DNA of 64,000 nt from Hydrogenophaga sp. GTDB taxonomy: Bacteria; Pseudomonadota; Gammaproteobacteria; Burkholderiales; Burkholderiaceae_C. The notes below the pieces were generated by a model. That model was not told the DNA's origin and made no database searches. It saw only the letters and a list, made by a program, of their open reading frames with translations. Positions 19,861 to 50,879 of the stretch are shown one piece after another. The stretch's first letter is position 1. Each line of letters opens with the position of its first letter. The position numbers and the translations under genes are program-made. The DNA lies in NCBI RefSeq assembly GCF_018780385.1, contig NZ_JADMJO010000003.1:620001-684000 (forward strand), written 5' to 3'.

Positions 19861-19894
19861 ATCCTAGTAGCACGCAGTGACGGTTTGATTGCAG
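19861..19894 (-). promoter_or_regulatory. Candidate Pho box and promoter of the phoB-like gene
   Basis: Minus strand: half-sites CTGCAAT and CCGTCAC separated by CAAA (19894-19877), each 5 of 7 to CTGTCAT at the canonical 11-bp period. Ten nt later comes TAGGAT (19866-19861), a 4 of 6 match to the -10 consensus, and the ATG is 26 bp further. Box, 10 nt, -10 is the layout of known PhoB-activated promoters. Confidence 0.6.
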
Positions 19895-19917
19895 CTCCGC
19901 GCGCTTTGGACTTTGCC

Positions 19918-19951
19918 CAGTCACACATCTGACGTACTTGCTCCCTAGACT
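19918..19951 (+). promoter_or_regulatory. Candidate Pho box and promoter of the pstS-like gene and EPS operon
   Basis: Plus strand: half-sites CAGTCAC and CTGACGT separated by ACAT (19918-19935), each 5 of 7 to CTGTCAT. Exactly ten nt later lies TAGACT (19946-19951), 4 of 6 to TATAAT, and the pstS-like ATG is 34 bp downstream. It mirrors the site facing the phoB-like gene. Confidence 0.55.
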
Positions 19952-19985
19952 CGCGGTCTTCTCATTCATCCGGTGTTCGCGTCAC

Positions 19986-21023
19986 ATGAAGCTCCTCAAC
20001 TTCAACTGCCTTTTGGTCGCGACGGGCATGGCGATGGTCTCGCTGAGCGCCATCGCTCAGGACATCACCGGCGCAGGCGCCACCTTTCCCGCACCGGCGT
20101 ATGCCAAGTGGGCCGACGCCTACAAAGGCGCTGCCGAGGTCAAGGTGAACTACCAGGCCATCGGCTCCAGTGGCGGCATTCGACAGATCGATGGACGCAC
20201 CGTGGACTTCGGTGCCACGGACGCGCCGTTGAAGGACGACGAACTCGCCCGCAAAGGTCAGATCCAGTTTCCAACCCTCATCGGTGGCGTGGTTCCGGTG
20301 GTGAACCTGCGGGGCATCAACCCCGGTCAGCTTCGCCTCACCGGCGCCATCCTCGGTGACATCTACCTCGGCAAAGTCACCCGCTGGAGCGACCCCGCCA
20401 TCCAGGCCCTCAACCCGCAACTCCCCCTGCCCGACACCACCATCACGCCGGTGTTTCGCTCGGACGGCTCCGGCACTTCCTTCATCTTCACCAACTACCT
20501 CGGCAAGGTGAACGCCGAGTGGAAAACGCGCATCGGTGAAGGCACCCAGGTGGGTTGGCCCACGGGCACCGGCGGTCGTGGCAACGTGGGCGTGGCCGCC
20601 GTCGTCTCGCGCACCCCCAACGCGATCGGCTACGTGGAGTACGCCTACGTGAAGCAGGCCAAGCTGAATTACGCCCTGCTGCAAAACGCATCGGGCGCCT
20701 TCGTGGCACCGGGCACCGTTGCGTTCCGGGCCGCCAGCACCGGCGTGGACTGGACCACATCCCATTCACACATGCTGACCCAGCAACCCGCCGCCGAGGC
20801 CTGGCCCATCACCGGCGCCACCTTCGTGCTGATGTATGCGAAGCCCGACAACGTGGCCCACGCCGCTCAGGCCCTGCGCTTCTTCCACTGGGGCATGACC
20901 AAGGGAGAAACCATGACGACCGATCTGGGCTACGCGGCCCTGCCCAAGTCCGTGGTGGATTCGGTCGAGTCGCTGTGGGCCCGGGTGCGGGATCCCTCAG
21001 GCAAGTCTGTTGCCTACAAATAG
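19986..21023 (+). CDS. pstS: PstS-like phosphate-binding protein
   Basis: 345 residues from the ATG at 19986; a longer frame to 19938 would cover the likely -10 hexamer and is rejected. Signal peptide ends at AIAQ. PstS hallmarks are all visible: ITGAGATFPAPAYAKW, the IGSSGGI loop, DFGATDAPL, RSDGSGTSFIFTNYL and GWPTGTGGRGN; these contribute the phosphate-binding residues in the family. Unlike a normal pst operon, no pstC, pstA or pstB follows; the next genes, from 40 bp downstream, are epsD and epsE. It could be a sensor-like or matrix-associated phosphate binder, or it may serve a Pst transporter encoded elsewhere. Confidence 0.9.
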   Translation: MKLLNFNCLLVATGMAMVSLSAIAQDITGAGATFPAPAYAKWADAYKGAAEVKVNYQAIGSSGGIRQIDGRTVDFGATDAPLKDDELARKGQIQFPTLIGGVVPVVNLRGINPGQLRLTGAILGDIYLGKVTRWSDPAIQALNPQLPLPDTTITPVFRSDGSGTSFIFTNYLGKVNAEWKTRIGEGTQVGWPTGTGGRGNVGVAAVVSRTPNAIGYVEYAYVKQAKLNYALLQNASGAFVAPGTVAFRAASTGVDWTTSHSHMLTQQPAAEAWPITGATFVLMYAKPDNVAHAAQALRFFHWGMTKGETMTTDLGYAALPKSVVDSVESLWARVRDPSGKSVAYK

Positions 21024-21063
21024 TCCAGCGCCCCGCGCGTCCCTTTCTTTCTTAGAGCTCGAC

Positions 21064-22074
21064 ATGAATCACTTCAAACGCACCCCCATGGTCACCCTGT
21101 TGCAGACGACCGTGCTGGCCTTGTCACTGTCCGTTGGCCTGAGCGCCTGCGGCAGCCAGGAAGACGGCACCAAGGCCACGCAGGTGGCTGCCAAGGTGGG
21201 CTCCAGCGAAATCTCGGTGCACCAGATCAACCAGGTTCTCAGCCGAACGCCCGTGGGCAATGCATCCAAGGACGAGGTCCAGGCGGCCAGCCGCCAGGTG
21301 CTCGAACGCCTGATCGACCAGCAGCTGGCGGTGGACCAGGCCACCGAAAGCAAGCTGCACCGCTCGCCCGACGTGGTGGCCCAGCTGGAAGCGGCGCGCC
21401 GTGAGGTGCTGGCCCGCGCCTTCCTTCAACAACTCACCGCCACCGTGGCCAAGCCCACCGCTGAAGACGTGACGCAGTACTACACCGCCAACCCGGCGCT
21501 GTTTGCCGAGCGGCGCATCTTCAACCTGCAGGAAATCCGCGTGCCCAAGGCCACCGGCGTGGTCGACGACCTGGTCAAGCTCGCCGAGAAGGCCCGCCCC
21601 ATCGAAGAGGTGGCAGGCTTCCTGCGCACGCGCAACGTGCAGTTCGGCGGCGGCAGCGCCACCCGCTCCGCAGAGCAGATTCCACTGGAACTGCTGCCCC
21701 GCGTGCATGCCCTCAAGGACGGCCAGAGCACCGTGGTCCAGGCGGGCGACAGCGTGACCTTCCTGCGCATTGCCTCCTCGCAGCAGGTGCCAGTGAGTGA
21801 AGCCGTGGCCACGCCCGGCATCACCCAGTTCCTGGGAAACCGGCGCAACACCGAGGCGGTCACCAGCGAGATCAAACGCCTGCGTGAGACCACCACCATC
21901 ACCTACCTCGGCGACTTTGAACGTGCCGCGGCCAAACCCTCCACCGGGCCACAAGGCCCGGGCGATGCCGGTGCAACAGCGCCCTCGTTGGTGGTGCCGC
22001 CGGCCAATGGCGACAAGCCCGCCGCCAGCCCCGAGCAAAGCGCCATCGAGCGTGGTCTGCAGGGCCTGAAGTGA
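21064..22074 (+). CDS. epsD: EpsD-family peptidyl-prolyl isomerase-like lipoprotein
   Basis: 336 residues from the ATG at 21064. Lipoprotein signal with lipobox LSAC. Residues ~30-190 are a SurA/PrsA-type chaperone region (VGSSEISVHQINQVL, VLERLIDQQLAVDQATES, PTAEDVTQYYTANPALF). A parvulin-like segment follows (IFNLQEIRVPK, QIPLELLPRVHALKDGQSTVV), and the tail is Pro/Ala-rich. The gene order epsD-epsE-epsF-epsG is characteristic of XrtB-linked EPS operons. It probably folds or assembles EPS export components in the periplasm. Confidence 0.85.
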   Translation: MNHFKRTPMVTLLQTTVLALSLSVGLSACGSQEDGTKATQVAAKVGSSEISVHQINQVLSRTPVGNASKDEVQAASRQVLERLIDQQLAVDQATESKLHRSPDVVAQLEAARREVLARAFLQQLTATVAKPTAEDVTQYYTANPALFAERRIFNLQEIRVPKATGVVDDLVKLAEKARPIEEVAGFLRTRNVQFGGGSATRSAEQIPLELLPRVHALKDGQSTVVQAGDSVTFLRIASSQQVPVSEAVATPGITQFLGNRRNTEAVTSEIKRLRETTTITYLGDFERAAAKPSTGPQGPGDAGATAPSLVVPPANGDKPAASPEQSAIERGLQGLK

Positions 22075-22898
22075 ACCCGGCGCTCATGAGCCTGCCGAGC
22101 AGGCTGCGGTCCCTCTTGTTGCTGGTGGCCTCGGCGTTTCTGTCGTTCGGTGCACAGGCGCAGACCGGGCCGGTGGACTATCCGCTCGCCGCCGGTGACA
22201 CGGTGCGGGTGCAGGTGTTCCAGAACCCCGACCTCACGCTGGAAACCCGCATCACCGAAAGCGGCACCATTTCCTTTCCCCTCATCGGATCGATCCGCCT
22301 GGGCGGGCTGCCGGTCAGCGCGGCAGAGAAGAAGATCGCCGACGCGCTCAAGAGCGGAGGCTTCCTGCAAAACCCGCAGGTCACGCTGCTGCTGACCCAG
22401 ATCCGCGGGAGTCAGGTGTCGGTGCTGGGTCAGGTGGGCAGGCCGGGCCGGTTTCCGCTGGAGACCGCCAGCACCCGCCTGAGCGACATGCTGGCCAACG
22501 CGGGCGGCACCGCCCCGGGTGGTGACGACGTGGTGATCGTGAGTGGTCAACGCGCGGGCAAGCCGTTTCGCAAGCTGGTCGATCTGCCGGCCCTCTTCCT
22601 GCGGGAGCGCAGCGAAGACGACATCGTGCTGCAGGGCGGCGATGTCGTCTACGTGCACCGCGCACCCGTCTTCTACGTGTATGGCGAAGCCCAGCGGCCG
22701 GGCTCGTTTCGCATCGAGCGATCCATGACCGTCATGCAGGCACTGGCCCTGGCGGGCGGTCCGACCGCGCGCGGCTCGCGCGACCGATTGCAACTGCACC
22801 GCCAGCAGGACGACGGCAGCGTGAGGCTACTCGCACCCCAGATGAACGACCTGGTGATGCCCAACGATGTGCTCTACGTCCGCGAGAGCCTCTTCTGA
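22071..22898 (+). CDS. epsE: EpsE, Wza-like polysaccharide export protein
   Basis: 275 residues starting at a GTG that overlaps the epsD stop as GTGA. Signal peptide ends at GAQA. A polysaccharide-export (Poly_export) domain follows (YPLAAGDTVRVQVFQNPDL, GTISFPLIGSIRLGGLPVSAAEKKI), then two SLBB-type domains (VSVLGQVGRPGRFPLE and FYVYGEAQRPGSFRIE). It forms or joins the outer-membrane export channel. No lipobox is visible, unlike Wza. Confidence 0.92.
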   Translation: MNPALMSLPSRLRSLLLLVASAFLSFGAQAQTGPVDYPLAAGDTVRVQVFQNPDLTLETRITESGTISFPLIGSIRLGGLPVSAAEKKIADALKSGGFLQNPQVTLLLTQIRGSQVSVLGQVGRPGRFPLETASTRLSDMLANAGGTAPGGDDVVIVSGQRAGKPFRKLVDLPALFLRERSEDDIVLQGGDVVYVHRAPVFYVYGEAQRPGSFRIERSMTVMQALALAGGPTARGSRDRLQLHRQQDDGSVRLLAPQMNDLVMPNDVLYVRESLF

Positions 22899-22924
22899 AG
22901 TCCGGTGCCTGAGACCTCCCCACC

Positions 22925-24292
22925 ATGACACCCCACCAACTTCTGATCATCCTGCGTGCGCGCTGGCTCGTGGTGTTCGTCACCTTCGTGCTGGTTGCCG
23001 CCAGCACCGCCGCCGTGTCCCTGCTCTCCGACAAGCAATACACCGCCACCGCATCGGTGGTGCTCGACGTCAAGCCCGATCCGGTGAGCGGCACCATGGG
23101 CGGCATGGTGGCCACCGGCTACCTGGCCACCCAGGTCGACATCATCAAGAGCGACCGTGTGGCCAAGCGCGTGGTGAGCAATCTGCGCATGGACAGCAAC
23201 CTCTCGGTGCAATCGCAATGGCGCGAAGCCACGGGCGGCCGGGGCCAGCTCATCGACTGGCTGGCCGGCCTGCTCAAGGGCAACCTCGATGTGAAGCCCT
23301 CGCGCGAAAGCAACGTGATCAACATCGAGTACGTGGGTGCCGACCCCGACTTCGCTGCCGCCGTGGCCAATGCATTCGCAAAAGCCTATGTGGACGTCAA
23401 CCTCGAACTTCGGGTGGACCCCGCGCGCCAGTACGCCGGCTTCTTCGATGAGCAGACCAAGGCAGCGCGTTCGCGCCTGGAGACCGCGCAGAAAGCGCTG
23501 TCCGACTTCCAGCAGGCCAACGGCATCACGTCCAACGACGAGCGCGTGGACTACGAGACCGCCAAGCTCAACGAGACCAGCAGCCAGCTGACCTCGATCC
23601 AGGCCGCCACCACCGACAGCCGCAGCAAACGCGCGCGCGCCGACGGCAACACCGTGGCCGAGGTGATGCAAAGCCCCTTGATCAACGGACTGAAGTCGGA
23701 CATCGCGCGGCTGGAAGCCAAGCTGATCGAAAGCGGCGTGAACCTGGGCAAGAACCATCCACAGACGCAGCGCGCCGAGTCCGAACTGGCCGCATTGAAG
23801 TCGCAACTCGAATCCGAGACCCGGCAGATCACCAGCTCCATCAACACCACCTACGAGGTGAACCGCCAGCGCGAAGGCCAGCTGCAAGCCGCCCTGGCCG
23901 CGCAGAAGTCGCGCGTGCTGTTGCTCAACCAGCAACGCGATGAAATCCGCGTGCTGCGCGGCGACATCGAGTCGGCCCAACGCGTGTTCGACTCGGTCAG
24001 CCTGCGCGCCTCACAAAGCAGTCTGGAGAGCCAGACCAGCCAGACCAACATCGCGGTGCTCAACCCCGCTGTGGCGCCCATGTTTCCGTCAGGACCCCGG
24101 GTCAAGCTCAACATCGCCATCGCCATGTTCCTGGGCGGCCTGCTCGGGGTGATGCTGGCGTTGTCGCTGGAGTTCACCAACCGGCGCGTGCGTTCGATGG
24201 ACGACCTGCACGAGCTGCGCGACGTCATCCTGCTCGGCGCCATCAGCCCGGCCGGCGGCATGATGAAGCCGGCCACCGGAGGCCGTGCATGA
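22925..24292 (+). CDS. epsF: EpsF, chain-length determinant (Wzz/PCP) protein
   Basis: 455 residues. N-terminal membrane helix (~14-35), Wzz-like periplasmic domain, a long coiled coil (~175-385, including KAARSRLETAQKALSDFQQ and SELAALKSQLESE), a proline-rich PMFPSGP motif and a second helix (~397-417), then a short cytoplasmic tail. This is the polysaccharide co-polymerase plan; the kinase is a separate protein (EpsG), with which it overlaps as ATGA. It sets chain length and couples polymerisation to export. Confidence 0.92.
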   Translation: MTPHQLLIILRARWLVVFVTFVLVAASTAAVSLLSDKQYTATASVVLDVKPDPVSGTMGGMVATGYLATQVDIIKSDRVAKRVVSNLRMDSNLSVQSQWREATGGRGQLIDWLAGLLKGNLDVKPSRESNVINIEYVGADPDFAAAVANAFAKAYVDVNLELRVDPARQYAGFFDEQTKAARSRLETAQKALSDFQQANGITSNDERVDYETAKLNETSSQLTSIQAATTDSRSKRARADGNTVAEVMQSPLINGLKSDIARLEAKLIESGVNLGKNHPQTQRAESELAALKSQLESETRQITSSINTTYEVNRQREGQLQAALAAQKSRVLLLNQQRDEIRVLRGDIESAQRVFDSVSLRASQSSLESQTSQTNIAVLNPAVAPMFPSGPRVKLNIAIAMFLGGLLGVMLALSLEFTNRRVRSMDDLHELRDVILLGAISPAGGMMKPATGGRA

Positions 24293-25146: not shown

Positions 25147-25149
25147 GCG

Positions 25150-25560
25150 TCAATGGCGCTCGACCTCCACATGTGCAGCCACCCATGCCCTGAGCTGCAT
25201 GCGAACCGCGAGCACGACCGTGCCCAGCGCCGCACCCGCCGCGTCCGCCACCAGATCGTCGATCTCGGCGGTGCGCCCCGGCAGCCGCATCTGGCTGGCT
25301 TCATCAACCAGGCCCACCAGCAAGGCACCCGCAAAGCCGAACAGCATGGCGGACGGACCGTGGCGGCGGCTGGCGAAACCGATGGCACACGACAGCACCG
25401 CATACACGGCCATGTGGGCCAACTTGTCCCAGGGGGCCGGCACCAGACCGACCGCAAAGGGTTGTGCGCCGCCCACCCACAGCGCCAGCGGGATGCTCAA
25501 GGCCAGCAGCACGGCCAGCCAACGCGCAATGCGCTGAACGCGCCCCAGTGAGAAAACCAT
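25150..25560 (-). CDS. VanZ-like membrane protein on the opposite strand inside the EPS operon
   Basis: 136 residues from the ATG at 25560. VanZ signature: WDKLAHMAVYAVLSCAIGF, then VDEASQMRLPGRTAEIDDLVADAAGAALG, with about four membrane helices; length is normal for the family. VanZ-like proteins are common near EPS loci but their biochemical role is unsettled. Its ATG lies in the same CATG as the xrtB start, so the two divergent genes overlap by 2 bp and each promoter would lie within the other gene. A longer frame to 25689 overlaps xrtB further and adds nothing VanZ-like. Confidence 0.8.
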   Translation of the reverse strand: MVFSLGRVQRIARWLAVLLALSIPLALWVGGAQPFAVGLVPAPWDKLAHMAVYAVLSCAIGFASRRHGPSAMLFGFAGALLVGLVDEASQMRLPGRTAEIDDLVADAAGAALGTVVLAVRMQLRAWVAAHVEVERH

Positions 25561-26464
25561 GACCGCCACCACCCCTGTTCCTGAAGCGACCAGCCCATCG
25601 ATGGTGATGCGCCTGATGCCGTACCTGCCGATTATGGTGGGCCTGGCCCTGTTGTATCTACCCAGCCTGTACGACCTCTTCACCGGCATCTGGGCTCAGG
25701 ACGAACAGTTCCATGGCCCGATCGTGCTGGCCATTTCGCTCTGGCTGCTGCAGCGCAACTGGGCCGCCATGGAGGTGGTCTCGCGCGGCGAACAGCCCAG
25801 TGCCTGGGGCTGGCCGCTGGTGGCGATCGCTCTGGTGCTGTATGCGCTGGGCCGCTCGCAGGGCATCGGCATCTTCGAGGTGGGATCGGTGATCTGGCTG
25901 CTCGCCGGGCTGTTGCTGCTGCTGCGCGGCACCACCGCGCTCAAGGCCCAGTGGTTCGCGCTGTTTTTCATGCTGTTCATGGTGCCTTTGCCCGCGCAGG
26001 TGGTTGATCTGGTGACCATGCCCATGAAGATGGCGGTGTCCTACGTGGCGGAGAACGTGCTGTACCTCGCGGGCTACCCGATCGGACGCAACGGGGTGGT
26101 GCTGCAGATCGGCCAGTACATGCTGCTGGTGGCCGACGCCTGTGCCGGCCTGCACACCTTGCTCACGCTCGAAGCGCTCGGTCTGCTCTACCTCAATCTG
26201 GTGCGGCGCGACTCGCTGTTTCGCAACGTTGCGCTCGCCATCCTGATCGTGCCGATCTCCTTCACCGCCAACGTGATCCGCGTGATGGCACTCAGCCTGA
26301 TCACCTACCACTTCGGCAATGAAGCGGGCCAGGGCTTCCTGCACGGCTTTGCCGGCATGGTGCTCTTCCTCAGCGCGCTGCTGTTGATCATCTGCACCGA
26401 CACCGCGCTCCAGTTCTTCGAAGGCCTGCGCAAGCGGACCAGCACCCAACCCCACGAGGCCTGA
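25559..26464 (+). CDS. xrtB: Exosortase B (XrtB/EpsH)
   Basis: 301 residues, about eight membrane helices. The exosortase triad is intact: Cys195 in VADACAGLHTLL, Arg241 in TANVIRVMALS, His251 in ITYHFGNE. The family is an inner-membrane transpeptidase-like enzyme that processes the PEP-CTERM tail of exported proteins; three candidate substrates are in this window (7852, 43198, 43886). It is followed by epsI, the usual partner. ATG at 25559 has only a weak upstream GAGAA; an in-frame Met at residue 15 is an alternative start. Confidence 0.95.
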   Translation: MTATTPVPEATSPSMVMRLMPYLPIMVGLALLYLPSLYDLFTGIWAQDEQFHGPIVLAISLWLLQRNWAAMEVVSRGEQPSAWGWPLVAIALVLYALGRSQGIGIFEVGSVIWLLAGLLLLLRGTTALKAQWFALFFMLFMVPLPAQVVDLVTMPMKMAVSYVAENVLYLAGYPIGRNGVVLQIGQYMLLVADACAGLHTLLTLEALGLLYLNLVRRDSLFRNVALAILIVPISFTANVIRVMALSLITYHFGNEAGQGFLHGFAGMVLFLSALLLIICTDTALQFFEGLRKRTSTQPHEA

Positions 26465-26469
26465 AACCC

Positions 26470-27180
26470 ATGGTCTTCCCGCTCAAGAACCTCCTGCTGC
26501 TGGCCCTCATGGTGGCCTCTGCCGCACTGGCCGCGGCCATCCGCCCGACCGCGAGCCTGGCCGACGAACGACCCACCATCGATCTCGCCGCCATGGTGCC
26601 CGGCGCGTTTGGAGGCTGGAGGGAACAGTTCAACGTGGCCGTGCAGATCGTGGACCCGGAGCAGCAGGCCACCATCGAGGAGATCTACACGCAGACCCTC
26701 ACGCGCAACTACGTCCACAGCGACGGCTACCGCGTGATGCTCTCCATTGCCTACGGCAAGAACCAGAGCGACAACCTTCAGCTGCACAAACCCGAGGTCT
26801 GCTACCCGGCGCAGGGCTTCAAGCTGGAGAAAGTCGAACGCGTGCCGCTCAACCTGCTCGATCAGTCCATCGCCACCACCCGCCTGGAAACCCACCTGGG
26901 GCAACGCTTCGAGCCCGTGACCTACTGGACGGTGGTGGGAGATCACATCACCACGACCGGTATCGACAAGAAGCTCACCGAGATGCGCTACGGCCTGCGC
27001 GGACGGGTGCCCGACGGCATGTTGGTTCGTGTGTCGTCGATCGACCGGGACAGCTCCCGAGCCCACCGCATCCAGGCCGAGTTTGCCGCCGCCATGGTGG
27101 CGGCCATTGCCCCTGAAAACCGCGCCCGATTCGCCGGCGTCAGTCCCACCAGCGGCGCTCGCGCCACCACCGCACCATGA
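26470..27180 (+). CDS. epsI: EpsI, exosortase B-associated protein
   Basis: 236 residues with an N-terminal membrane anchor/signal ([21 protein letters not shown]). The EpsI hallmark [13 protein letters not shown] is present with its Cys, together with [18 protein letters not shown] and [12 protein letters not shown]. In related systems EpsI is fused to or located next to the exosortase and is needed with it; its chemistry is not established. It begins 6 bp after xrtB and overlaps gmd as ATGA. Confidence 0.92.
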
Positions 27181-28295
27181 AGAAAAAGACCGCACTCATC
27201 ACCGGCATCACCGGTCAGGACGGCTCGTACCTGGCCGAACTGCTGCTCGACAAAGGCTACGAGGTGCACGGCATCAAACGCCGCTCCTCGTCGTTCAACA
27301 CCGACCGCATCGACCACCTCTACCAGGACCCGCACGAGTCCGACCGGCGACTGGTGCTGCACTACGGCGACCTCACCGACAGCAGCAACCTGATCCGCAT
27401 CATCGGGCAGGTGAAGCCGGACGAGCTCTACAACCTCGGCGCCATGAGCCACGTGGCGGTGAGCTTCGAGAGCCCCGAATACACCGCCGACGTGGACGCC
27501 ACCGGCACGCTGCGCCTGCTCGAAGCCATCCGGTTGCTCGGCATGCAGAAAACCTGCCGCTTCTACCAGGCCTCCACCAGCGAACTGTATGGACTGGTAC
27601 AGGAAACACCGCAGAAGGAAACCACGCCGTTCTACCCGCGCAGCCCCTACGCGGTGGCCAAGCTCTACGCCTACTGGATCACGGTGAACTACCGCGAGGC
27701 CTACGGCATGTACGCCTGCAACGGCATCCTGTTCAACCACGAAAGCCCGCAGCGCGGCGAAACCTTCGTCACCCGCAAGATCACTCGCGCCATCTCGCGC
27801 ATTGCGCTGGGCCTGCAGAAATGCCTGTACCTCGGCAACATGAGCGCGCTGCGCGACTGGGGCCACGCCAAGGACTACGTGGAAATGCAGTGGCTCATGC
27901 TGCAACAGGACAAGCCGGAAGACTACGTGATCGCCACCGGCGTGCAGTACAGCGTGCGCCAGTTCGTGGAACTCGCCGCGCTCGAACTCGGCTTCACACT
28001 GGACTGGATCGGTGAAGGCAGCGACGAAGCCGGTGTGGTGGCGGCCGTGCACCGCAAAGATTTGCGCGTGCAGGTGGGCGACGTGGTGGTTCGGGTGGAC
28101 CCACGCTACTACCGCCCCACCGAAGTGGATACCCTGCTGGGCGATGCGAGCAAGGCGCGCACCCAGCTCGGCTGGACGCCCAAGATCACCCTGCCCCAGC
28201 TGGTGCAGGAGATGGTGCAGTCCGACTACCGCATGGCCCGGCGCGACGCCATGGTCAAGCTGGCCGGCTTTCCGGCTTTCGAGTTTCACGAGTGA
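27177..28295 (+). CDS. gmd: GDP-mannose 4,6-dehydratase
   Basis: 372 residues, full length. Extended SDR with the NADP-binding motif [15 protein letters not shown] and the Gmd-specific [19 protein letters not shown]. The catalytic STSELYG and YAVAK are followed by [21 protein letters not shown]. It converts GDP-mannose to GDP-4-keto-6-deoxymannose, the first step of GDP-fucose (or GDP-rhamnose/colitose) synthesis. Coupled to epsI upstream and fcl downstream by 4-bp overlaps. Confidence 0.96.
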
Positions 28296-28303
28296 GCCGC
28301 GCC

Positions 28304-29299: not shown

Positions 29300-29330
29300 A
29301 CACCCGGCTCGCCCACACACGAGGCCGCCG

Positions 29331-34472: not shown

Positions 34473-34475
34473 GCC

Positions 34476-41573: not shown

Positions 41574-41600
41574 AACCGTCTGCATGACAGAAAGGTTGGC

Positions 41601-42062: not shown

Positions 42063-42068
42063 AAGATG

Positions 42069-43013
42069 TCACGGCTTCCGGGGCTTGACGATCAAACGCG
42101 CCGGCACATCGGCGGTTCCAGTCGCCGGTGCAGGTTCACTCAACACCTCTCGCAGCCAGACGGCGTGTTCGCCCAGCACCACGCCCCCGCCACCCGTGCC
42201 CGACGCCCGTGGACTTGCGGTGGTGGCACCGAAGGAGATGTTGAAGGTGTTGACGCCAGCGAGATACCACCGACCATCCACGTGCACAAAGGCCGCACTG
42301 CCCGAGTCGCCGTTGGCCAGGGTCGCCTCTCGATCAAGCCCCAGGGTGCCGTTGGCGGGCACCGCGGGTCCCAGGCGGTTGGTGGCGAGGTCGGGGCCAT
42401 CGAAGTCGAACAGGTAGGTCGCGGGGCGCCCGAGGAAGTCGGGAAACACCAGGTCGGCGCGGTTTTCCCCGGTTGTAAACAGCGTGGTGCTGCCGCCGTG
42501 GCTCACGAGGGTGAGGACGCGCCCCAGCACAGGCCCGGTGAACAGGCGCGCGACCGGCATCTTCGACGGTGCGGGTGTGGCCAGCCGCACGATGGCCAGG
42601 TCCGCATGCACGGAGGGATCGCCCGGGCTGTTGTTGGCGCTGCTGCCGGTGTAGCCCGGGTGCACCTGCACCGAGGTGCCCGCACTTGTAAATCCCTCGG
42701 CGGCCGCGCTGCGAAAGCGGATGTGCGCCGGATTGGCGCCGGCCACCACATGAGCTGCCGTGATCACATGCTGCCGGCCGATCAAGGTGGCACTGAACAG
42801 CCGTCCGCCCACGTCCAGGCTGCCCACGGCGGCCCAGGCCGGGTCCGCCGGCTCCTCGCTGGGACCAGCGCCACCGGTGAGCGCATGGGCGAGGCCCATG
42901 GCCATGCCAACGCAGGCGCAAACGCTTCGCCGCAGCCATGCGCGGGAGGCACGGGCACGCTCCGCCCGTCGACCGGCAGTCAACCTGCGCGCACCACCAT
43001 CCAATCGGACCAT
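42069..43013 (-). CDS. Secreted trypsin-like serine protease
   Basis: 314 residues from the ATG at 43013, preceded by GGGGTG. The long basic N-terminus (Arg-rich to about residue 30) then a hydrophobic stretch (SVCACVGMAMGLAHAL) suggests an unusual signal peptide. Chymotrypsin-fold triad: His in VITAAHVVAG, Asp in HADLAIVRL, Ser in ANGDSGSAAFV. There is no PEP-CTERM tail. It is divergent from a PEP-CTERM gene, so the two may share a control region. It might process surface proteins; the substrate is unknown. Confidence 0.85.
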   Translation of the reverse strand: MVRLDGGARRLTAGRRAERARASRAWLRRSVCACVGMAMGLAHALTGGAGPSEEPADPAWAAVGSLDVGGRLFSATLIGRQHVITAAHVVAGANPAHIRFRSAAAEGFTSAGTSVQVHPGYTGSSANNSPGDPSVHADLAIVRLATPAPSKMPVARLFTGPVLGRVLTLVSHGGSTTLFTTGENRADLVFPDFLGRPATYLFDFDGPDLATNRLGPAVPANGTLGLDREATLANGDSGSAAFVHVDGRWYLAGVNTFNISFGATTASPRASGTGGGGVVLGEHAVWLREVLSEPAPATGTADVPARLIVKPRKP

Positions 43014-43197
43014 GCCAGCACCCCTACCCAACGTGAAACGAACGAACAACCACGTCAGCCTCCCCGCAAAATCGGAAGCTCGTGGCTGACTCACGTGGTG
43101 ACCATACCCAGGCTGGTGTGACTTTGCTATCGCGTGTCAGTCTTTCATTTGTTGGCACCGTCCCGCTGCAATCCCGGGGCGATGAAAGGTGATCACC
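43014..43197. other. Divergent promoter region, protease / PEP-CTERM gene
   Basis: 184 bp between two divergent starts. It must hold both promoters. AAGGTGAT sits nine bases before the ATG at 43198 and decides that start over the GTG at 43189. A TTGGCAC sequence at 43152-43158 recalls a sigma-54 -24 element, but the spacing to the following GC is wrong. Confidence 0.45.
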
Positions 43198-43860
43198 ATG
43201 TTCCGTTTGAAATCCCTCTGCCGGGCCGTGTGCCTGGCCACCGGCCTGATCCTCACGGCGGGCGCTGGCTCTGCGGCCACTCCCCTGTCCGCCCTCGGCG
43301 GCACGTCCACCGATCTGCTCGCTTCCGCTGTGTCGTTCAACCCCAATTGGTTCGACGACGCATCGTCATTTGCCAGCCGCAGCGCCAGCAGCTTCGACCT
43401 GAGCTCGATGCTCATGGGCGCTTCCCTGCTGCTGACGCAGCCCGCCAACGTCACATACACGCTGATGGGGTTTGAAGCCGGCTTCAACAACGCTTTCGTG
43501 TCGGGCACTGAACAACTGACCAACCGCAGCGGCTCGACACCCCGGCTCGGCACCTCGTTGAGCTTCAACCACGTCACGGCTTCCCCGCTGGACTTCGGTT
43601 TCCTGTCCAACGGAAGCGGCACGCTGTTCGCCAATGGCAGCTCGCGCACGGGCCTGGTGATGTCCAACGACGGCCAGAGCGCGCTCATCCTGTTCAACGA
43701 CATGTACTCGGGCGACATCGATTTCGACGACATGGTGATCCGTGTGTCGATTTCGGCGGTGCCGGAACCCGAGATGCTGGGCATGCTGCTGGCCGGCCTG
43801 GGCCTGGTCGCAGCAGGTGCACGGCGTCGTTTGAAGCGCATGGGCACGTTGGCTGTTTGA
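43198..43860 (+). CDS. PEP-CTERM sorting domain protein, DUF4114-like
   Basis: 220 residues. Signal peptide ends near AGSAA. The middle has FNDMYSGDIDFDDMVIRVS, the acidic pattern seen in DUF4114-type secreted proteins. The tail VPEPEMLGMLLAGLGLVA plus ARRRLKRMG is a PEP-CTERM signal. Predicted XrtB substrate found at the cell surface or in the matrix. Confidence 0.88.
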   Translation: MFRLKSLCRAVCLATGLILTAGAGSAATPLSALGGTSTDLLASAVSFNPNWFDDASSFASRSASSFDLSSMLMGASLLLTQPANVTYTLMGFEAGFNNAFVSGTEQLTNRSGSTPRLGTSLSFNHVTASPLDFGFLSNGSGTLFANGSSRTGLVMSNDGQSALILFNDMYSGDIDFDDMVIRVSISAVPEPEMLGMLLAGLGLVAAGARRRLKRMGTLAV

Positions 43861-43871
43861 GATGGTGCGCG

Positions 43872-43893
43872 GGCGGCCGGTCTGGTCAGACCG
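43872..43893. terminator. Possible bidirectional hairpin between convergent PEP-CTERM genes
   Basis: GC-rich inverted repeat (CGGTC at 43878-43882 with GACCG at 43889-43893, extendable with GGCGG/CCGCC) in the 25-bp convergent gap. No T-run on either strand, so termination strength is uncertain. Confidence 0.35.
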
Positions 43894-44653: not shown

Positions 44654-44688
44654 GGGAGGCCTTTGTTGAATGAAGAAGGATCAGGATT

Positions 44689-47022
44689 TCAGGGAACGAC
44701 GGGGGCCACCAGATCACGACCAGGCGCCATCTGCGCAGCGGTCAGACCTTTGAGCAGGACGAAGGGACGCGCCACGGCGGGGCCGGTGGAGCCGTCGGTG
44801 TCAATGGACAACTGCACGCCACCGATCACGTCGAAGAACGTCACATGTCCGCTGGCCACACCGTTGCCCGCCACGCCCAGGCTGCCCAGCAGCGGGGTGA
44901 GGTCGAGCTTGTCGGCATAGGGCGTGAAGTCGGTGATGGTGTCGCCGGCATCGCGGGTGCTGGTGAAGCGGAAGACGTCACCACCAGCCCCACCCGTGAG
45001 CATGTCGGCACCGGCGCCGCCGATGATGATGTCGTCCCCTGCGGTGCCCACCAAGGTGTCGCGGCTGGTGGTACCGGCGCGCGTGACACCGGGCGTGGCC
45101 TTGGCGACGGCAGCATCGATCAAGCGGCCATGTGAGTCGAACGCGTTTTCTTCGCCGTACATGTTCACGGTGATTTCGTCGCCATCGGCCAGGCTCACGC
45201 GCTGCAGGCCACCTGTTGCTTTTGGCGCCTTGATGAAGTTCGCCAGTGCTTCCTGGTAGGTGATGGTGTTGACCGTGTTGTTGAACACCACGTTGTTGGC
45301 CGCGAAGGGGTAACCGTCGCCACCGTTGGCGGTGAAGTCGATGGTCGCGAAGGAGAAGACACGCGGCGACACGACCACACCGTTGTCGACCAGCAAGGTG
45401 CCGTCGTCGAGCCTGATCTTGCGGATGCGCTCGCCCGTGCCCAGCGTGGATCGGGCCGTGCGGGTGGTGTCGTACGTCACCTGCATGCCGGAAATCTGCG
45501 CGAAGCGGCCCTGTGCCGAGCCACCGGGCGTGGACGCGGCCACGGAGTGCTCCATCAGATCCTTGAGCTGAGCCGCATTCATGGCCGGTGCGGTTTTCAC
45601 CAGGTTGGTGAAGGGCAGCACGTTGAAGGTGTCACCGGTGGTGACGTTGCCCGGGCCGGCAATGCTGGTGCGGATCCCGCCGCCGTTCTGAATGCCCACT
45701 TCGGCGCCACCGGCAAAGCGCATCGCGTCGGCCACGAGGTTGCCCAGGCCGGTGTCGGCGTTGCGCACGCCCTCGGTGTATTCGCAGGGCAGCGGCGTGC
45801 AGGCCACATGGGTGGGACCGTTGAGCTTGGTGGCGGTCGTGCCGATGATCTCGGCGTTGAGAGCCGCAATGAAGTTGGAGACCGGTGTGATCACCGAAGC
45901 CTGCAGGGCGGGGTCGCCGCTGACGCGGTCGGCATCGGCGGCAGCACCCGAAACTCGGATCATGCGGGTGGCGAGCACGGCGGTCACCGCGCCGGTGGTG
46001 TCATGGATGTCGAGTTGGACTTCACCCACGTAACGGTTGCCAAAGTGACCGGTGACCATGGGCACGGGTTTGCCGGTGGCGTCGTTGCGGTAGGTGGGAT
46101 GGGTGCTGTAGGACGGTGCCACGCCGCCGTTGATCAGCAGGTCGTCCGAGTCGACCATCAGTTCGTGGCCACCGCCCGAGATGACCATGTCCACACCGCT
46201 CAGGGCCGGGATCATCACATTGAGTTCGTTGGCGGCATTCTGCAGGTGGCTCATCACGATGATGGCGGTCACTCCCTGGTTGTTCCTGAGGTCATCGATC
46301 TCGGCCTGCACCAACGGCAACAGGGCCTGGATGTTCTGCAACTCGCTGTTGCTGGCGCTCCAGTTTTTCATGATGCCGGCCGGTGGCGATGAAATGCTGG
46401 GCAGCAGGGGCGTGGTCACGCCGATCACGCCCACCTTCTTGCCCGCCGCGGTGGTGAGGATCTTGGAGGGGCGCACCTTTTGCTGGGCGGCCAGATTGGC
46501 CAGCGCGGGGGTGACGCTGAAGTCGAGGTTCACCGACAGGTAGGTGGTGCCCGAGACCTCCGCGAAGCGCGCTGCCACCGGGCCGGTGTTGTCGAGGTCG
46601 AATTCGTGGTTGCCGAAGGTGGTTGCGTCGATGCCGATGGCGCGGTTGGCGATGGCGTCGTAGAAGTCCTGGCCACCGTCGGCCGCCGCCGTGGCGAGGT
46701 TGGTGAAGCTGGCGGTCAGGCGCGGGCCGGGCAGGAACGAGTCGCCGGCGTTGAGCGTGATCACGGTGCTGCCAGCGGTGGCGGCAGCGGCCTTGCGGGC
46801 TGCAACCACACTGGCCAGGCGGTCGATGCCGCCATAGAACGAGATCGCCTGCGCGGCGTCATTGCGCAGGTTGCCCTGCGCCGACAACAACCACGACTCC
46901 TGGTCACCAATGTGCAGCACGGTCAGGGTTTCGGCCCAGGCGGCGTTGAAGCCGGTGGCCAGGGCGAGCGAGACCGCGAGGGTGCAGGCGCTGCGGCGCA
47001 GAGGGCTGCGGGTTGTTTTCAT
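44689..47022 (-). CDS. Secreted bifunctional 5'-nucleotidase/metallophosphatase with RTX-type C-terminus
   Basis: 777 residues. Sec signal peptide (to about residue 30), then a metallophosphatase domain (LHIGDQESW, LNAGDSF, GIDATTFGNHEFDLDNTG, IVMSHLQN, ISGGGHE) and the 5'-nucleotidase C-terminal domain (LGNLVADAMRF, IQNGGGIRTS, FTANGGDGYPF). Residues ~652-777 are a calcium-binding RTX-like type I secretion cassette (GGAGADMLTGGAGGDVF, DAGDTITDF). It should release phosphate from extracellular nucleotides. Having both a Sec signal and an RTX tail is odd. It is 53 bp downstream of the nuclease gene. Confidence 0.9.
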   Translation of the reverse strand: MKTTRSPLRRSACTLAVSLALATGFNAAWAETLTVLHIGDQESWLLSAQGNLRNDAAQAISFYGGIDRLASVVAARKAAAATAGSTVITLNAGDSFLPGPRLTASFTNLATAAADGGQDFYDAIANRAIGIDATTFGNHEFDLDNTGPVAARFAEVSGTTYLSVNLDFSVTPALANLAAQQKVRPSKILTTAAGKKVGVIGVTTPLLPSISSPPAGIMKNWSASNSELQNIQALLPLVQAEIDDLRNNQGVTAIIVMSHLQNAANELNVMIPALSGVDMVISGGGHELMVDSDDLLINGGVAPSYSTHPTYRNDATGKPVPMVTGHFGNRYVGEVQLDIHDTTGAVTAVLATRMIRVSGAAADADRVSGDPALQASVITPVSNFIAALNAEIIGTTATKLNGPTHVACTPLPCEYTEGVRNADTGLGNLVADAMRFAGGAEVGIQNGGGIRTSIAGPGNVTTGDTFNVLPFTNLVKTAPAMNAAQLKDLMEHSVAASTPGGSAQGRFAQISGMQVTYDTTRTARSTLGTGERIRKIRLDDGTLLVDNGVVVSPRVFSFATIDFTANGGDGYPFAANNVVFNNTVNTITYQEALANFIKAPKATGGLQRVSLADGDEITVNMYGEENAFDSHGRLIDAAVAKATPGVTRAGTTSRDTLVGTAGDDIIIGGAGADMLTGGAGGDVFRFTSTRDAGDTITDFTPYADKLDLTPLLGSLGVAGNGVASGHVTFFDVIGGVQLSIDTDGSTGPAVARPFVLLKGLTAAQMAPGRDLVAPVVP
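44692..45069 (-). repeat. RTX/T1SS-like C-terminal cassette, copy 1
   Basis: The last 126 codons of the nucleotidase gene are paralogous to the end of the nuclease gene. Shared blocks: RDTLVGTAGDD, GGAGAD, TSTRDA, ITDF and DTDG.GPAV.RP.V. The two enzymes thus carry the same export/anchor module. Confidence 0.85.
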
Positions 47023-47075
47023 GAGTGGGAGGCTCCGGGTTGGTGTTCAGGTGAGTTGGAACGGGTGCGGTCGGG

Positions 47076-50000
47076 TCACAGGCCGAGGTCGCGTGTCGGC
47101 ACGATCTGGGCGGCCGACACGTTGCTGAGCGTGACCAATGGCCGGCTCACGGCCGGGCCGGCGTTGCCATCGGTGTCGATCTGCACAACCAGCCCTGCGG
47201 CGCTGTCGACCAGCCGCACGATGCCGTCGGCGATGGCGTTGCTGCCGGTGTAGCCAATGCCCTGCAGCAGCGCGCTGATGTCGATGCGATCGGTGGCCGG
47301 CGCGAAGTCGGTGATGCGGTCGGCGGCATCGCGGGTGCTGGTGTAGATGAAGGTGTCGGCTCCGGCGTTGCCGGTGATCACGTCGGCGCCAGCGCCACCG
47401 GTGATGTGGTCATCGCCGGCTGTGCCCACCAGCGTGTCGCGACCCGTTGTTCCCTGCAAGGACTTGACCAGCGACAAGCCCAGCAGCACGGCGTCGTGAT
47501 CGGAAGAGCGGTAGACCGTGGGCGTGTAGTAGTCGGGGCCGCAAGTGGCGCAGGCGGGCTGCTTGAACTCGAGGTTGTAGTCAATGATCGACGGCTCGTC
47601 GGCATTGATGTGCCAGTGCACCGCGCCCGTGACCAGGGGGCTCAGGCTGGTGGTGGTCAGACCGTGGTCGAGGTAACCCGCTTCGCCGTCGAACACATAC
47701 GAGTAACTGTCGGCACCGCGCCGGGCAATTTCGTCCACCAGGCCCTGGGCCGCCAGTTCGAGGATCGGGTCTTCCTTGCCGTAGGCGTTGAGGTCACCCA
47801 CCACCACCACATCGGGGTCGGTTGCCTTCAAGGTCTCGATGAAGTTGCCCAGGGCACGGGCCTGATCCACGCGGGTGGCGTTGAAACACCCCTGGCCATC
47901 GCCCGCGTCGAGATCGGCAGCGTCCGAACCGGCTGCGCAATTCTTGGACTTGAAGTGGTTGACCACGACGGAGAACCGTTCGCCGTTGGCAGCGGCAAAG
48001 GTCTGCGCCAGCGGCGGACGGTTGTGCACCGGGTCGGTGTCGCTGCGGGCCTGGCCCACCAGACTCAGACGGCCGGGCTTGTAGATCATGGCCACGCGGA
48101 TCGCGTCAGTGCCGGCACCGCCCACAGGCAGGGCGACGGTGGCATAGGCGCCCGCGCCGGCCACGGCGTTCAAGCCGTTGACCAGGTCCTGCGCGGCCGT
48201 GTTGCCGTTGTTCTCGATTTCCATCAGACCCACCACGTCGGCATTGAGGCCGAGGATGGCGGGAATGATCTTGTTGCGCTGGCGCTGGAACTCGGCCGTG
48301 CTGTCGGCACCGCGGCAGTCGGACCGGGTGCCGGTGGGGTAGCAGCTGGCACCGGACTGGTCGATGGTCGTGAAGTAGTTCAACACGTTGAAGCTGCCCA
48401 CACGCACATTGCCGCCCACCGCGGGCGGTGCTGCCAGGCGCGGATTGGCGCGGGTGAACACGATCGGCTCGGTCGGGTGGATCTTGTAGTCGCTCAGGCC
48501 GTCGACGTTGTTGGTCGCCAAGCCGTAGTCGATGACGCCGGTGATGCCGCCTGGCAAGGTGTCGCCGGCGCGCAGTGTGTTGTCGGCGCCCATGTAGGGC
48601 GTGGGGTTGGGGTTCTGCAGGCTGGTGCCGTCGTCCAGGATGATGCGGCGGCGAGCGTTCTCGTCGGCCAGGGCGATCGCTTCGACCGAGCCAGCCGGGT
48701 GCACGTTCGTGGGCTTGATGAGGCGACCGTCAGCGCCCAGCGTCACCTGCCCGTATCGACCCTGGAAGAAGTTCTGCGCCGCTGTCAGGGGCGTCTGTAT
48801 GTAGAGCAGCATGCCCTCGTAGCGTTCGAGTTCACCTTCGACCACCTCGGGCAGCGTGATGACGGTGGGGGAGATGGCGTTGCCGCTGGAGACCACGCTG
48901 ATCACGGGCGAGGTGAGTTGCGTCACGGGCTTGTAGGCGGTGTTGACGCCGGTGGGTGCAAATTCACCCACCGTGCCGCTCACGCGCACATCCTGGCCCA
49001 CCGCCACCGTGGGCGCGACGTTCGTGAACACGAAGATGCCATCGGAAGTGGTGGCATCGCCGTCGCCCTGCGGGTCCTGCATGTAGAAACCGTTGTTGAG
49101 CAGCTTGATGACCACGCCTTGCGTCGCCACGGTCTGCCCCACACGCGGACTGAGGTCGCCGTTGCCCTGAATCTGGGGGATGCTCACGACCCCATTGACC
49201 GTGACGGTGAAGTCACAGGCGACCGACTGCAGCTCGTTGTTGGTGAAAGTGATCTGCACCGGATAGGTGCCCACGGGCACGCTGCCGTTGACCTGCACGG
49301 ACGTTGTCGCCTGACCGCCATCGCTGGTGGCCGAGTTCAGCGCGCCCATGGCGATGCCGGCCACTGCGGTGCTGGTCAGGCTCGCGCCATTGACCACGCT
49401 GTCGGCGTCGGTGGCGCTCAGATTGACCACACCACCCACACCTGCGTCGAACACCGCAGGGGCCGGGCAAGTGGCGGTGATCGGCAGGTTGACACCGCCC
49501 CCCAGCGGCGAGCCCGTGATGGTGATGTCGTCGATGCCGATCCATTCGTCAGCGCCAGCCGCATCGGTCGTGATGATGCGAACCTGGACTTCGGCCTGGT
49601 TGTCGGCAGCGGCCGGCAGGACCACGGACACAGGGAAGATCGCACCCGTCAGGCTGGGGCCCTGGCTGGCATCGGCCACGAAGCCGGCCGGCAGGTTGAT
49701 GAAGTTGCCGCTGTTGCCAACCCGGTATTGCAGTGCCACGGGCTGGATCGCGTTGTCGGCGGCGCCGTCCACATCGCGCAGCACGTAGCTCACCTGCACG
49801 GCCTGCTGTCCGCTCGTGTTGAGGTGGATGACGATGTGAGGGGCCTTGGCCGTGCCCGAGCCTGCGAGCGCCAGCGTCGGCTTGGCGATGGCGAACTCCG
49901 TCACACCGCCGGTGGTGAAGGTGTTGGGATTGCTCTGATTGGCGTTGACGTCGACCAGGAGAGTGCCGGCCCCGACAACCGTCTGGGGATCGGCGCCCGT

Positions 50001-50237
50001 GCCGCTCGCCATGCCGTCTCCGCGGTATCCAACGATGCCTGCAACGCCCGCCCAGTCGTCACTCGCCGAAATGAGACCGGCGTTGCTCCAGTCCTGGGAA
50101 AACGGAAGGGTTTGCGGAACCGAGTCCGCCCAGGCAGGCAATGCCGACAACACGCCCAAGGCCACCAGGCAGGCAGAAAGACGCTGGGGAGCCAGCGACA
50201 GGCGGGGGGTGGTCGTGCGCGAAGTGGTCATGAGCAT
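47076..50237 (-). CDS. ExeM/NucH-type extracellular endonuclease with RTX-type C-terminus
   Basis: About 1053 residues from the ATG at 50237 (the ATG at 50231 is also possible). Signal peptide ends at PAWAD. The first ~300 residues form beta-sandwich domains, a DUF-type OB-fold nuclease-associated region follows (IPQIQGNGDLSPRVGQTVATQGVV), then an endonuclease/exonuclease/phosphatase domain with VRVGSFNVLNYF, LMEIENNG, VNHFKSKNC, VVVVGDLNAYG and YRSSDHDAVLLGL. C-terminal RTX-like cassette from RDTLVGTAGDD. The family degrades extracellular DNA, giving biofilm dispersal and nutrient release. Likely co-transcribed with the 5'-nucleotidase: nucleic acid to nucleotide to phosphate. Confidence 0.9.
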   Translation of the reverse strand: MLMTTSRTTTPRLSLAPQRLSACLVALGVLSALPAWADSVPQTLPFSQDWSNAGLISASDDWAGVAGIVGYRGDGMASGTGADPQTVVGAGTLLVDVNANQSNPNTFTTGGVTEFAIAKPTLALAGSGTAKAPHIVIHLNTSGQQAVQVSYVLRDVDGAADNAIQPVALQYRVGNSGNFINLPAGFVADASQGPSLTGAIFPVSVVLPAAADNQAEVQVRIITTDAAGADEWIGIDDITITGSPLGGGVNLPITATCPAPAVFDAGVGGVVNLSATDADSVVNGASLTSTAVAGIAMGALNSATSDGGQATTSVQVNGSVPVGTYPVQITFTNNELQSVACDFTVTVNGVVSIPQIQGNGDLSPRVGQTVATQGVVIKLLNNGFYMQDPQGDGDATTSDGIFVFTNVAPTVAVGQDVRVSGTVGEFAPTGVNTAYKPVTQLTSPVISVVSSGNAISPTVITLPEVVEGELERYEGMLLYIQTPLTAAQNFFQGRYGQVTLGADGRLIKPTNVHPAGSVEAIALADENARRRIILDDGTSLQNPNPTPYMGADNTLRAGDTLPGGITGVIDYGLATNNVDGLSDYKIHPTEPIVFTRANPRLAAPPAVGGNVRVGSFNVLNYFTTIDQSGASCYPTGTRSDCRGADSTAEFQRQRNKIIPAILGLNADVVGLMEIENNGNTAAQDLVNGLNAVAGAGAYATVALPVGGAGTDAIRVAMIYKPGRLSLVGQARSDTDPVHNRPPLAQTFAAANGERFSVVVNHFKSKNCAAGSDAADLDAGDGQGCFNATRVDQARALGNFIETLKATDPDVVVVGDLNAYGKEDPILELAAQGLVDEIARRGADSYSYVFDGEAGYLDHGLTTTSLSPLVTGAVHWHINADEPSIIDYNLEFKQPACATCGPDYYTPTVYRSSDHDAVLLGLSLVKSLQGTTGRDTLVGTAGDDHITGGAGADVITGNAGADTFIYTSTRDAADRITDFAPATDRIDISALLQGIGYTGSNAIADGIVRLVDSAAGLVVQIDTDGNAGPAVSRPLVTLSNVSAAQIVPTRDLGL
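47079..47447 (-). repeat. RTX/T1SS-like C-terminal cassette, copy 2
   Basis: Last 123 codons of the nuclease gene; matches copy 1 at 44692-45069 over its full length with GGAGADVITGNAGADTF as the nonapeptide core. No type I secretion genes are visible in the window. Confidence 0.85.
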
Positions 50238-50530
50238 TGTTTCGTTGGGAGAATTCGGAGGCGAGCAATGCAACGCCGATGTGCGTTGGATCATGCAGAG
50301 CGTCGATCACGGGATTGCGATCCCCCACGCCGGGTTTACTGGTCCGAACGGATCACGGGTTCCCACCCGGTTGAACTTTCCCGCTGGCTTGACGATGAGC
50401 CGCGCGCGTGCTTGTGTTCAGTGCGGCCATGGATGCGCGCAGGCGTGTAGACCCACCTCGCGTCAAAGCGCGGGGCGGGTCAAACAACACGATGTGGGAG
50501 TGGGTGACCCGGTGGCGGGGCACCTGCCGG
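50238..50530. other. Intergenic region upstream of the nuclease gene
   Basis: 293 bp without a gene. A short 5-bp stem (CGGGT/ACCCG, about 50356-50374) is the only structure I see. It may be a leader if transcription starts at the Pho-box-like site near 50862, or may hold a separate nuclease promoter. Confidence 0.4.
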
Positions 50531-50764
50531 TTACGGCTGAGCTCGATCAGAGAACATGATTTCGCGCCGACCGCTCAGGGTGACGCGTCCCAGCAAACCC
50601 CCATCCAGCGTGGGCGACTCCAGGAGCCAGATGCCAGGCTCAACCCCCAGCAGGGCGTCGATCGGCCGCTGTCCCGGGCAAACGCTGAGCGTGCCCATGA
50701 AGTAGTCCCCGGCGGGCGGATGCAGCATCTCCAGATGCGCCAGACGATTGTTGAAGATGTTCAT
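50531..50764 (-). CDS. Small hypothetical protein (77 aa)
   Basis: 77 residues, not recognised. The ATG has AGGT ten bases upstream. No signal peptide; sequence moderately acidic with Gly/Leu-rich C-terminal half. It is the first open frame after the candidate Pho box at 50862-50879 and is followed by the nuclease gene on the same strand. It could be a small regulator or a leader peptide, or an untranslated open frame. Confidence 0.45.
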   Translation of the reverse strand: MNIFNNRLAHLEMLHPPAGDYFMGTLSVCPGQRPIDALLGVEPGIWLLESPTLDGGLLGRVTLSGRREIMFSDRAQP

Positions 50765-50845
50765 TCAGATACCTGTGGCATGACTGTGGGTGTCGGCCGA
50801 ACACTGTGATCGACGGCTCCCGGACCACAGACAGCCGCAGGTCAA

Positions 50846-50879
50846 AGTCTGAACAGATTTGATTGCAGTGGCTTGACAG
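50846..50879 (-). promoter_or_regulatory. Candidate Pho box and promoter upstream of the small gene / nuclease operon
   Basis: Minus strand: half-sites CTGTCAA (6 of 7 to CTGTCAT) and CTGCAAT (5 of 7) separated by GCCA (50879-50862), a third CTGTT-containing segment next to it, and CAGACT exactly ten nt after the box (50851-50846), almost the TAGACT found at the pstS-like gene. CTGCAATCAAA is identical to 11 nt of the site before the phoB-like gene. Confidence 0.5.

Follow-up and report, generated by a model that had tools for sequence, protein, structure and literature searches.

Little is known, to our knowledge, about what switches exosortase-B systems on. The question is raised by a stretch of 64,000 nucleotides from Hydrogenophaga sp. 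(C77:620001-684000, genome size 5.38 Mb; hereafter the window), in which paralogues of PhoB and PstS, here PhoB2 and PstS2, appear to be built into an exosortase-B exopolysaccharide (EPS) locus. We put at about 0.66 the probability that this orphan PhoB paralogue drives its own gene, pstS2 together with the exosortase-B EPS operon, and a secretion operon led by gspG, because the sites before these three transcription units are conserved and rare in nine genomes, and those at pstS2 and gspG also rank high with a weight matrix. As an architecture of the DNA, a local PhoB-type circuit is well supported by its genes, its sites, their conservation and the spacing of the housekeeping pst promoters; that the three sites are promoters, and which regulator and phosphate signal act on them, we infer.

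The assignment of PstS2 follows from two models that agree and from a match to solved PstS chains over nearly the whole protein. The genes after pstS2 are eps genes, not pstC, and XrtB, EpsD, EpsE, EpsF and EpsI type B each score over cut-off, confirming an exosortase-B EPS locus. The ATG of epsD lies 40 nt past the pstS2 stop. No terminator-like site was present in this gap, and a search for sigma-70-type promoter pairs in positions 18800-22200 returned none (0.4 expected by chance). The phoB2 gene is divergent from pstS2 and stands beside a type II secretion system (T2SS)-like cluster, among whose genes only GspG scored over cut-off in an NCBIfam scan; GspF, the secretin, GspC and GspM fell below theirs. 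In a genus sample of 67 genomes, part of them incomplete, EpsE (TIGR03028) was over cut-off in nine, and in all nine gspE-gspF-gspG-phoB2 is divergent from pstS2-epsD-epsE-epsF. These nine genomes (~41 Mb together) were the comparison set for the locus, its promoters and the pattern searches.

A sequence-only reading of the window had described three sites, before phoB2 (site 1), before pstS2 (site 2) and in the region upstream of the endonuclease gene exeM (site 3), and had proposed that the PhoB-like protein controls itself, the pstS-like gene with the EPS operon, and a nuclease-nucleotidase pair. The genes and the sites at phoB2 and pstS2 stood up to analysis; the extension to the nuclease pair did not. 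The geometry could be read from the sequence as described, with half-sites 11 bp apart and 10 nt to a -10-like hexamer, and the half-sites of sites 1, 2 and 3 match CTGTCAT at 5+5, 5+5 and 6+5 of 7 positions. By the definition used in that reading the three are the best of ~128,000 window positions (14 of 20; next 13), a ranking that is partly circular because the sites had been chosen by eye. The same reading had noted that sites 1 and 3 share CTGCAATCAAA. The 11-mer is indeed in both, but the registers differ: it covers the first half-site and spacer of site 1, and the second half-site and downstream bases of site 3. No further copy was found in the window at ≤1 mismatch (0.55 expected on average by chance; two or more in 7 of 100 shuffles).

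As an independent yardstick, a canonical Pho matrix was built from the best match in each of 91 housekeeping pstS upstream regions (79 named records and 12 from the genus), with chance rates taken from 150 Markov windows. Its consensus, nTGTCACn5TGTCACA...TAGAGT, has a spacing identical to that of the locus sites, and the canonical promoters score at least 16.8 under their own matrix (median 37.7). The pstS2 site ranked second of 127,934 window positions with a score of 14.6, for which 0.027 chance matches per window are expected, and scored 12.5-19.7 across the nine loci. The first rank (score 19.9, equalled in none of the 150 Markov windows) was taken by a fourth site, before gspG and absent from the sequence-only list, which is kept in 9/9 genomes with scores from 0.1 to 19.9. 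Both the gspG and the pstS2 sites exceed -3 in every one of the nine loci. The phoB2 site ranked fourth with a score of -4.6; since this score alone is not significant, its case is made by conservation.

Sites 1 and 2 are both kept in 9/9 orthologous loci. Of the two sequence checks that the sequence-only reading had named as possible refutations, the pstS2 site thereby withstands both, conservation and matrix score, and the phoB2 site that of conservation only. In the alignment of the phoB2-pstS2 intergenic region, with gapped columns counted as variable, 37/68 columns are invariant within the sites vs 1/73 elsewhere (Fisher p 7e-14, a guide only because the nine genomes are related). The sites are also rare. 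The gspG-site pattern (≤2 mismatches) gave one match per genome in the nine genomes, always at that promoter, and its reversed control one in total; the phoB2-site pattern (≤3 mismatches) likewise gave one per genome, and its control 0. The pstS2-site pattern (≤2 mismatches) gave 13 matches, the pstS2 promoter in each of the nine genomes and, beyond these, four pst promoters of canonical type, against 0 for the control. Three of these four precede located pstS genes and the fourth is in G344; they surfaced partly because the pattern also accepted TAGAGT. A large PhoB2 regulon was rejected on these results, as the three patterns (2-3 mismatches) match only their own promoters and the four pst promoters; searches of this kind would miss more degenerate sites.

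The regulator itself was examined for its DNA-binding residues. The window protein has T194, V197, R201 and R219, the base contacts of E. coli PhoB as named in PMC3264566, and its numbering runs in step with the PhoB chains 1b00 and 1gxp. Twenty-four type-specific positions separate PhoB2 from 77 canonical PhoB rows, many of them in the DNA-binding domain, where the recognition helix carries K200S and E204N and further differences fall in the 188-192 loop and at E216R, A221S and R224S. Because the four contacts are kept while positions in this domain have diverged, the protein fits a regulator that would still read tandem Pho-like half-sites, presumably with a drifted preference. In a tree whose canonical rows were 11 from the genus and 22/66 others, the nine PhoB2 members formed one group (support 98/94), placed with four other regulators and apart from 32/33 canonical rows (L306 unresolved); a long-branch warning makes this position unsure.

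From these observations a mechanism can be proposed. PhoB2 would bind tandem half-sites 11 bp apart that replace the -35 element, with 10 nt between them and a -10 element of the TAnnnT type, and would activate three promoters: its own, that of pstS2-epsDEF-xrtB-EPS, and that of gspG with the T2SS-like operon. It would do so either in place of the housekeeping PhoB or jointly with it. The input would be low phosphate, and PstS2 may feed or sense phosphate. The genome has a single PhoR over cut-off, on contig C153, in a housekeeping cluster with pstS and phoB, where the next three genes after pstS are labelled pstC, pstA and pstB by order; the simplest guess is that this PhoR phosphorylates PhoB2 by cross-phosphorylation. 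PstS and PhoB of C153 are ~49% and ~51% identical to PstS2 and PhoB2, respectively. The nuclease and nucleotidase genes belong to the same inherited locus and would more likely be controlled separately, through a near-palindromic element described below.

Several observations weigh against a PhoB2 circuit of this kind. With the PhoR model no match was found in ~584.7-717.9 kb of C77 (the nearest lie near 584 and 718 kb), so that none stands beside phoB2. Evidence for the coupling comes entirely from one genus, and among 60 EpsE loci outside it pstS was found in 0/60 and PhoB in 1/60 (L155). These are 60 of the 62 over-cut-off places found among 300 sampled genomes of the order, all but those in G200 and G150, and 57/60 extend 3 kb or more upstream of epsE. 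Under the canonical matrix the phoB2 site is near chance (2.7 matches expected per window). The Pho-box spacing is present at phoB2, pstS2 and gspG, with degenerate letters: the half-sites TGCAAT/CGTCAC, GGTCAC/TGACGT and TGTAAC/CTTCAC deviate from TGTCAC. With leave-one-promoter-out matrices the gspG, phoB2 and pstS2 sites ranked 3rd, 7th and 77th, and with the canonical matrix mixed in 3rd, 4th and 3rd; since phoB2 and pstS2 rank only 7th and 77th from the other two promoters, the locus promoters share spacing more than letters. High-scoring positions also occur elsewhere, in G359 (23.9 in an open reading frame (ORF), 22.9, 14.9 and 5.5) and in G022 (13.8 in ORFs, and 6.9, vs 0.1 for the gspG site there). 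Further positions above -3 were found in G350 and G028 (5.2), G344 (3.5) and G008 (3.8); of six such extra positions checked, four lie inside long ORFs on either strand, one at a long-ORF start and one in none. The high positions in G359 and G022, together with weak matches near exeM, lowered our estimate from 0.68 to 0.66.

Other explanations of the same sites were weighed. Chance look-alikes might be suspected, as CTGTCAT-like pairs at ≤3 mismatches are frequent (166 in the genome; reversed control 53). The orthologous conservation and whole-genome rarity of the sites argue against this; it is very improbable overall, and already so for the pstS2 and gspG sites. Alternatively, the housekeeping PhoB of C153 could control the promoters, with PhoB2 a modulator or a regulator of something else. 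In keeping with this, the pstS2 and gspG sites were picked up by a matrix made from housekeeping pst promoters only, and the further matches of the pstS2-site pattern were pst promoters only. However, the scores of 14.6 and 19.9 fall short of the canonical range or come at its low end, the locus half-sites differ from canonical ones in a conserved way, and PhoB2 has been passed on together with the locus in 9/9 genomes, all of which makes control by the housekeeping protein unlikely.

A third explanation keeps PhoB-like DNA binding by PhoB2 and replaces the signal: another kinase, acetyl phosphate or none would act on the protein, and there would be no phosphate circuit. The orphan state of PhoB2, beside a single PhoR over cut-off in the genome, is compatible with this, as are its placement apart from the canonical PhoB rows (subject to the long-branch warnings) and its type-divergent position 15, which lies in the kinase-facing helix alpha1. 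Against it, PstS accompanies PhoB2 in 9/9 loci and the pstS2 promoter resembles pst promoters. We regard a change of signal as rather doubtful.

The remaining alternative is the claim of the sequence-only reading in full, that one Pho regulon includes the nuclease-nucleotidase pair. Site 3 has the correct spacing and ranked third with the canonical matrix, at a score of -4.2 for which 2.4 equal chance matches per window are expected. It begins upstream of a 77-aa ORF, at a distance of 115 nt, and of exeM, at 585 nt, and was found only in 4/9 genomes, those with the small ORF behind it, with 19/34 columns invariant vs 22/169 outside. The orthologous scores are -10.2, -15.7 and -3.6. Site 3 is conserved in these four genomes, but by its scores not as a Pho box. 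The small ORF gave no significant match in the examined stretches of the other five genomes. Within 800 nt of exeM, site 3 is the best position in four genomes, and G350 and G028 have another weak match (-1.6, 0.89 expected by chance) at 515 nt, so that in six of nine genomes the best match is a weak one, 515-585 nt upstream of exeM; the other three have nothing above -9.5 in this range. These weak matches raise the full claim slightly. It is also helped by ExeM/NucH being over cut-off in the identical 9/67 genomes as EpsE (in G032 as two pieces), with exeM and epsE on one contig in eight and on separate contigs in G008, and by transcription that may continue past the small ORF into exeM. With site 3 missing in 5/9 genomes, and with exeM having a conserved upstream element of its own, we consider the full claim quite unlikely. 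The reading of site 3 as the Pho promoter from which exeM is expressed was rejected on its 4/9 presence, its chance-level score and that element. The conserved element upstream of the small ORF contains CTGCAATC.

The exeM element, TGATCCGTTCGGACCA, lies 62 nt upstream of the first start codon and has 2-5 mismatches to the 18-mer in the nine genomes, the weakest in G008. A related element stands upstream of the gspG promoter, and the general form, ATGGTCCG-AACGGACCAT, recurs near gspG, exeM, PEP-CTERM, DsbC-like and WcaJ-EpsL genes. The gspG element has 2-4 mismatches to the 18-mer in six genomes and 5-6 in three; since element-free stretches give 6-8, it is backed in those three by alignment only. 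Six of the nine genomes contain TGGTCCNTTCGGACCA without mismatch, in a single copy each. Because the palindrome matrix was trained on the exeM and gspG sites, the independent matches are the one before the window PEP-CTERM gene, third best in the window (15.1; chance 0.1 matches of ≥14), and five of ≥15 within 19 kb located ~40 kb upstream (chance 0.1 of ≥14 per 64 kb). Of these five, one precedes two PEP-CTERM genes, three belong to a DsbC-like gene, with two at its start and one just past its end, and one precedes WcaJ-EpsL. The exeM-specific form matches exactly at a single position of the genome, with a higher reversed control, and the general form (≤2 mismatches) showed no genome-wide enrichment over its reversed control; the case for the palindrome therefore rests on position and conservation. 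It is possibly the operator of another regulator, through which the nuclease and nucleotidase genes would more likely be controlled.

Taken together with PhoB2, the palindrome suggests an insulated phosphate switch for matrix building. In such a scheme, PhoB2 with its drifted half-sites would act on EPS, exosortase and secretion genes, the palindrome regulator on gspG, exeM, PEP-CTERM and EPS-initiation genes, and some promoters would combine the phosphate and matrix signals. We offer this only tentatively.

Outside the genus, the PhoB-type regulator in L155 (12032-12700, minus strand) is 54% identical to PhoB2, lies ~3.5 kb upstream of epsD and comes from another family. It scores 299.1 bits with TIGR02154 (cut-off 296.2), and in its EpsE locus neither a pstS match nor a Pho-type site scoring above -9.5 was found. 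A link between exosortase B and PhoB2-like regulators may thus extend beyond the genus. The idea that PstS2 marks EPS-coupled loci elsewhere was rejected: among the best 80 of 554 confirmed relatives, 79 show no EPS gene in the examined stretch (77 have pstC beside pstS, and two short stretches have pstS alone), and L232 is the sole EPS-linked one.

Comparison with the PhoB/PhoR Pho regulon (pst-pho) shows that the locus shares with it a PhoB-family regulator, PstS, the 11 bp period and the 10 nt to the -10 element found in the genus pst promoters, whereas it lacks an adjacent PhoR or pstC, has degenerate half-sites, would target EPS and secretion genes, and has no wider target set by patterns. 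Phosphate-linked type II secretion is known from Hxc of P. aeruginosa. In Caulobacter, a T2SS secretes ElpS under phosphate starvation (PMC2996285). Both tie type II secretion to phosphate starvation, as is proposed here; unlike them, the window has a PhoB paralogue separating the secretion genes from a divergent EPS/exosortase operon. We know of no exosortase and no dedicated PhoB paralogue in the rhizobial phosphate-EPS systems. Phosphate or Pho-box type control is reported to be connected with EPS in rhizobia (PMC3131613, PMC3233446). Dedicated regulation of PEP-CTERM/EPS genes has precedents in an RpoN-dependent PEP-CTERM gene of Aquincola (PMC9850573) and in the PEP-CTERM regulation by Desulfovibrio DVUA0057 (PMC3333781), although the available parts of these sources describe no PhoB-type promoter over PEP-CTERM genes. 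No paper naming both exosortase and PhoB was found in the literature searched, mostly without subscription papers; a single one mentions PstS together with PEP-CTERM, and a single one two of XrtB, EpsL and exosortase. If the PhoB2 circuit is real, it ties matrix formation to phosphate through a dedicated PhoB-type regulator, and offers an example from nature in which a PhoB paralogue and its sites have drifted away from their housekeeping counterparts within one cell.

Table 1. Coordinates of the features discussed (window positions, except where L351 is named).
Feature	Position	Strand	Evidence or sequence
Remaining T2SS-like cluster: gspF, gspE, GspM-like, GspC-like, secretin, pilin-like	10633..18673	-	
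gspG, major pseudopilin, leading the leftward T2SS-like cluster	18511..19008	-	TIGR01710 166.4 bits vs 88.85; mechanical ORF, true start expected inside
Candidate Pho-type promoter before gspG (fourth site)	18993..19026	-	GTGTAAC-n4-CCTTCAC-n10-TAAAGT
Near-palindromic element TGGTCC-n4-GGATCA, upstream of gspG promoter	19069..19084	-	2 mismatches to TGGTCCNTTCGGACCA
phoB2, orphan PhoB-type response regulator	19148..19834	-	TIGR02154 313.1 bits vs cut-off 296.2
Candidate Pho-type promoter of phoB2 (site 1)	19861..19894	-	CTGCAAT-CAAA-CCGTCAC-n10-TAGGAT
Candidate Pho-type promoter of pstS2 and EPS operon (site 2)	19918..19951	+	CAGTCAC-ACAT-CTGACGT-n10-TAGACT
pstS2, periplasmic phosphate-binding protein	19986..21023	+	TIGR00975 379.8 bits vs cut-off 205
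epsD, epsE, epsF	21064..24292	+	TIGR02925, TIGR03028, TIGR03017 over cut-off
Exosortase B (xrtB) and EpsI type B	25559..27180	+	TIGR03113 399.8 vs 275; NF045609 291.1 vs 220
EPS sugar and glycosyltransferase genes	27177..41573	+	
Weaker palindromic element, upstream of PEP-CTERM gene	42997..43012	+	4 mismatches; ~20 chance matches per window at that level
PEP-CTERM protein	43189..43860	+	PF07589
RTX-tailed 5'-nucleotidase	44689..47022	-	PF02872, PF00353
exeM, RTX-tailed ExeM/NucH extracellular endonuclease	47076..50294	-	NF033681 575.5 bits vs cut-off 300
Near-palindromic element, exeM upstream region	50340..50355	-	1 mismatch; aligned in 9 loci
Conserved 77-aa small ORF	50534..50764	-	72-95% identical copies in 3 other genomes
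Site 3	50846..50879	-	CTGTCAA-GCCA-CTGCAAT-n10-CAGACT
Palindromes in L351	7065, 9416, 10323, 10345, 11922		

The exeM gene of G032 (L199 ~8575-8589) and the nucleotidase gene of G008 (L204 ~3555-3615) were each matched in two pieces, which may reflect a frameshift, decay or an assembly error. In G359, two divergent canonical-type Pho sites (L200 14805-14838 minus, 14.9, and 14876-14909 plus, 22.9) lie ~2.5 kb upstream of exeM, the plus-strand site within no long ORF. Past the T2SS-like cluster, the window encodes a ShlB/POTRA-type two-partner secretion transporter (4629-6263, minus strand).

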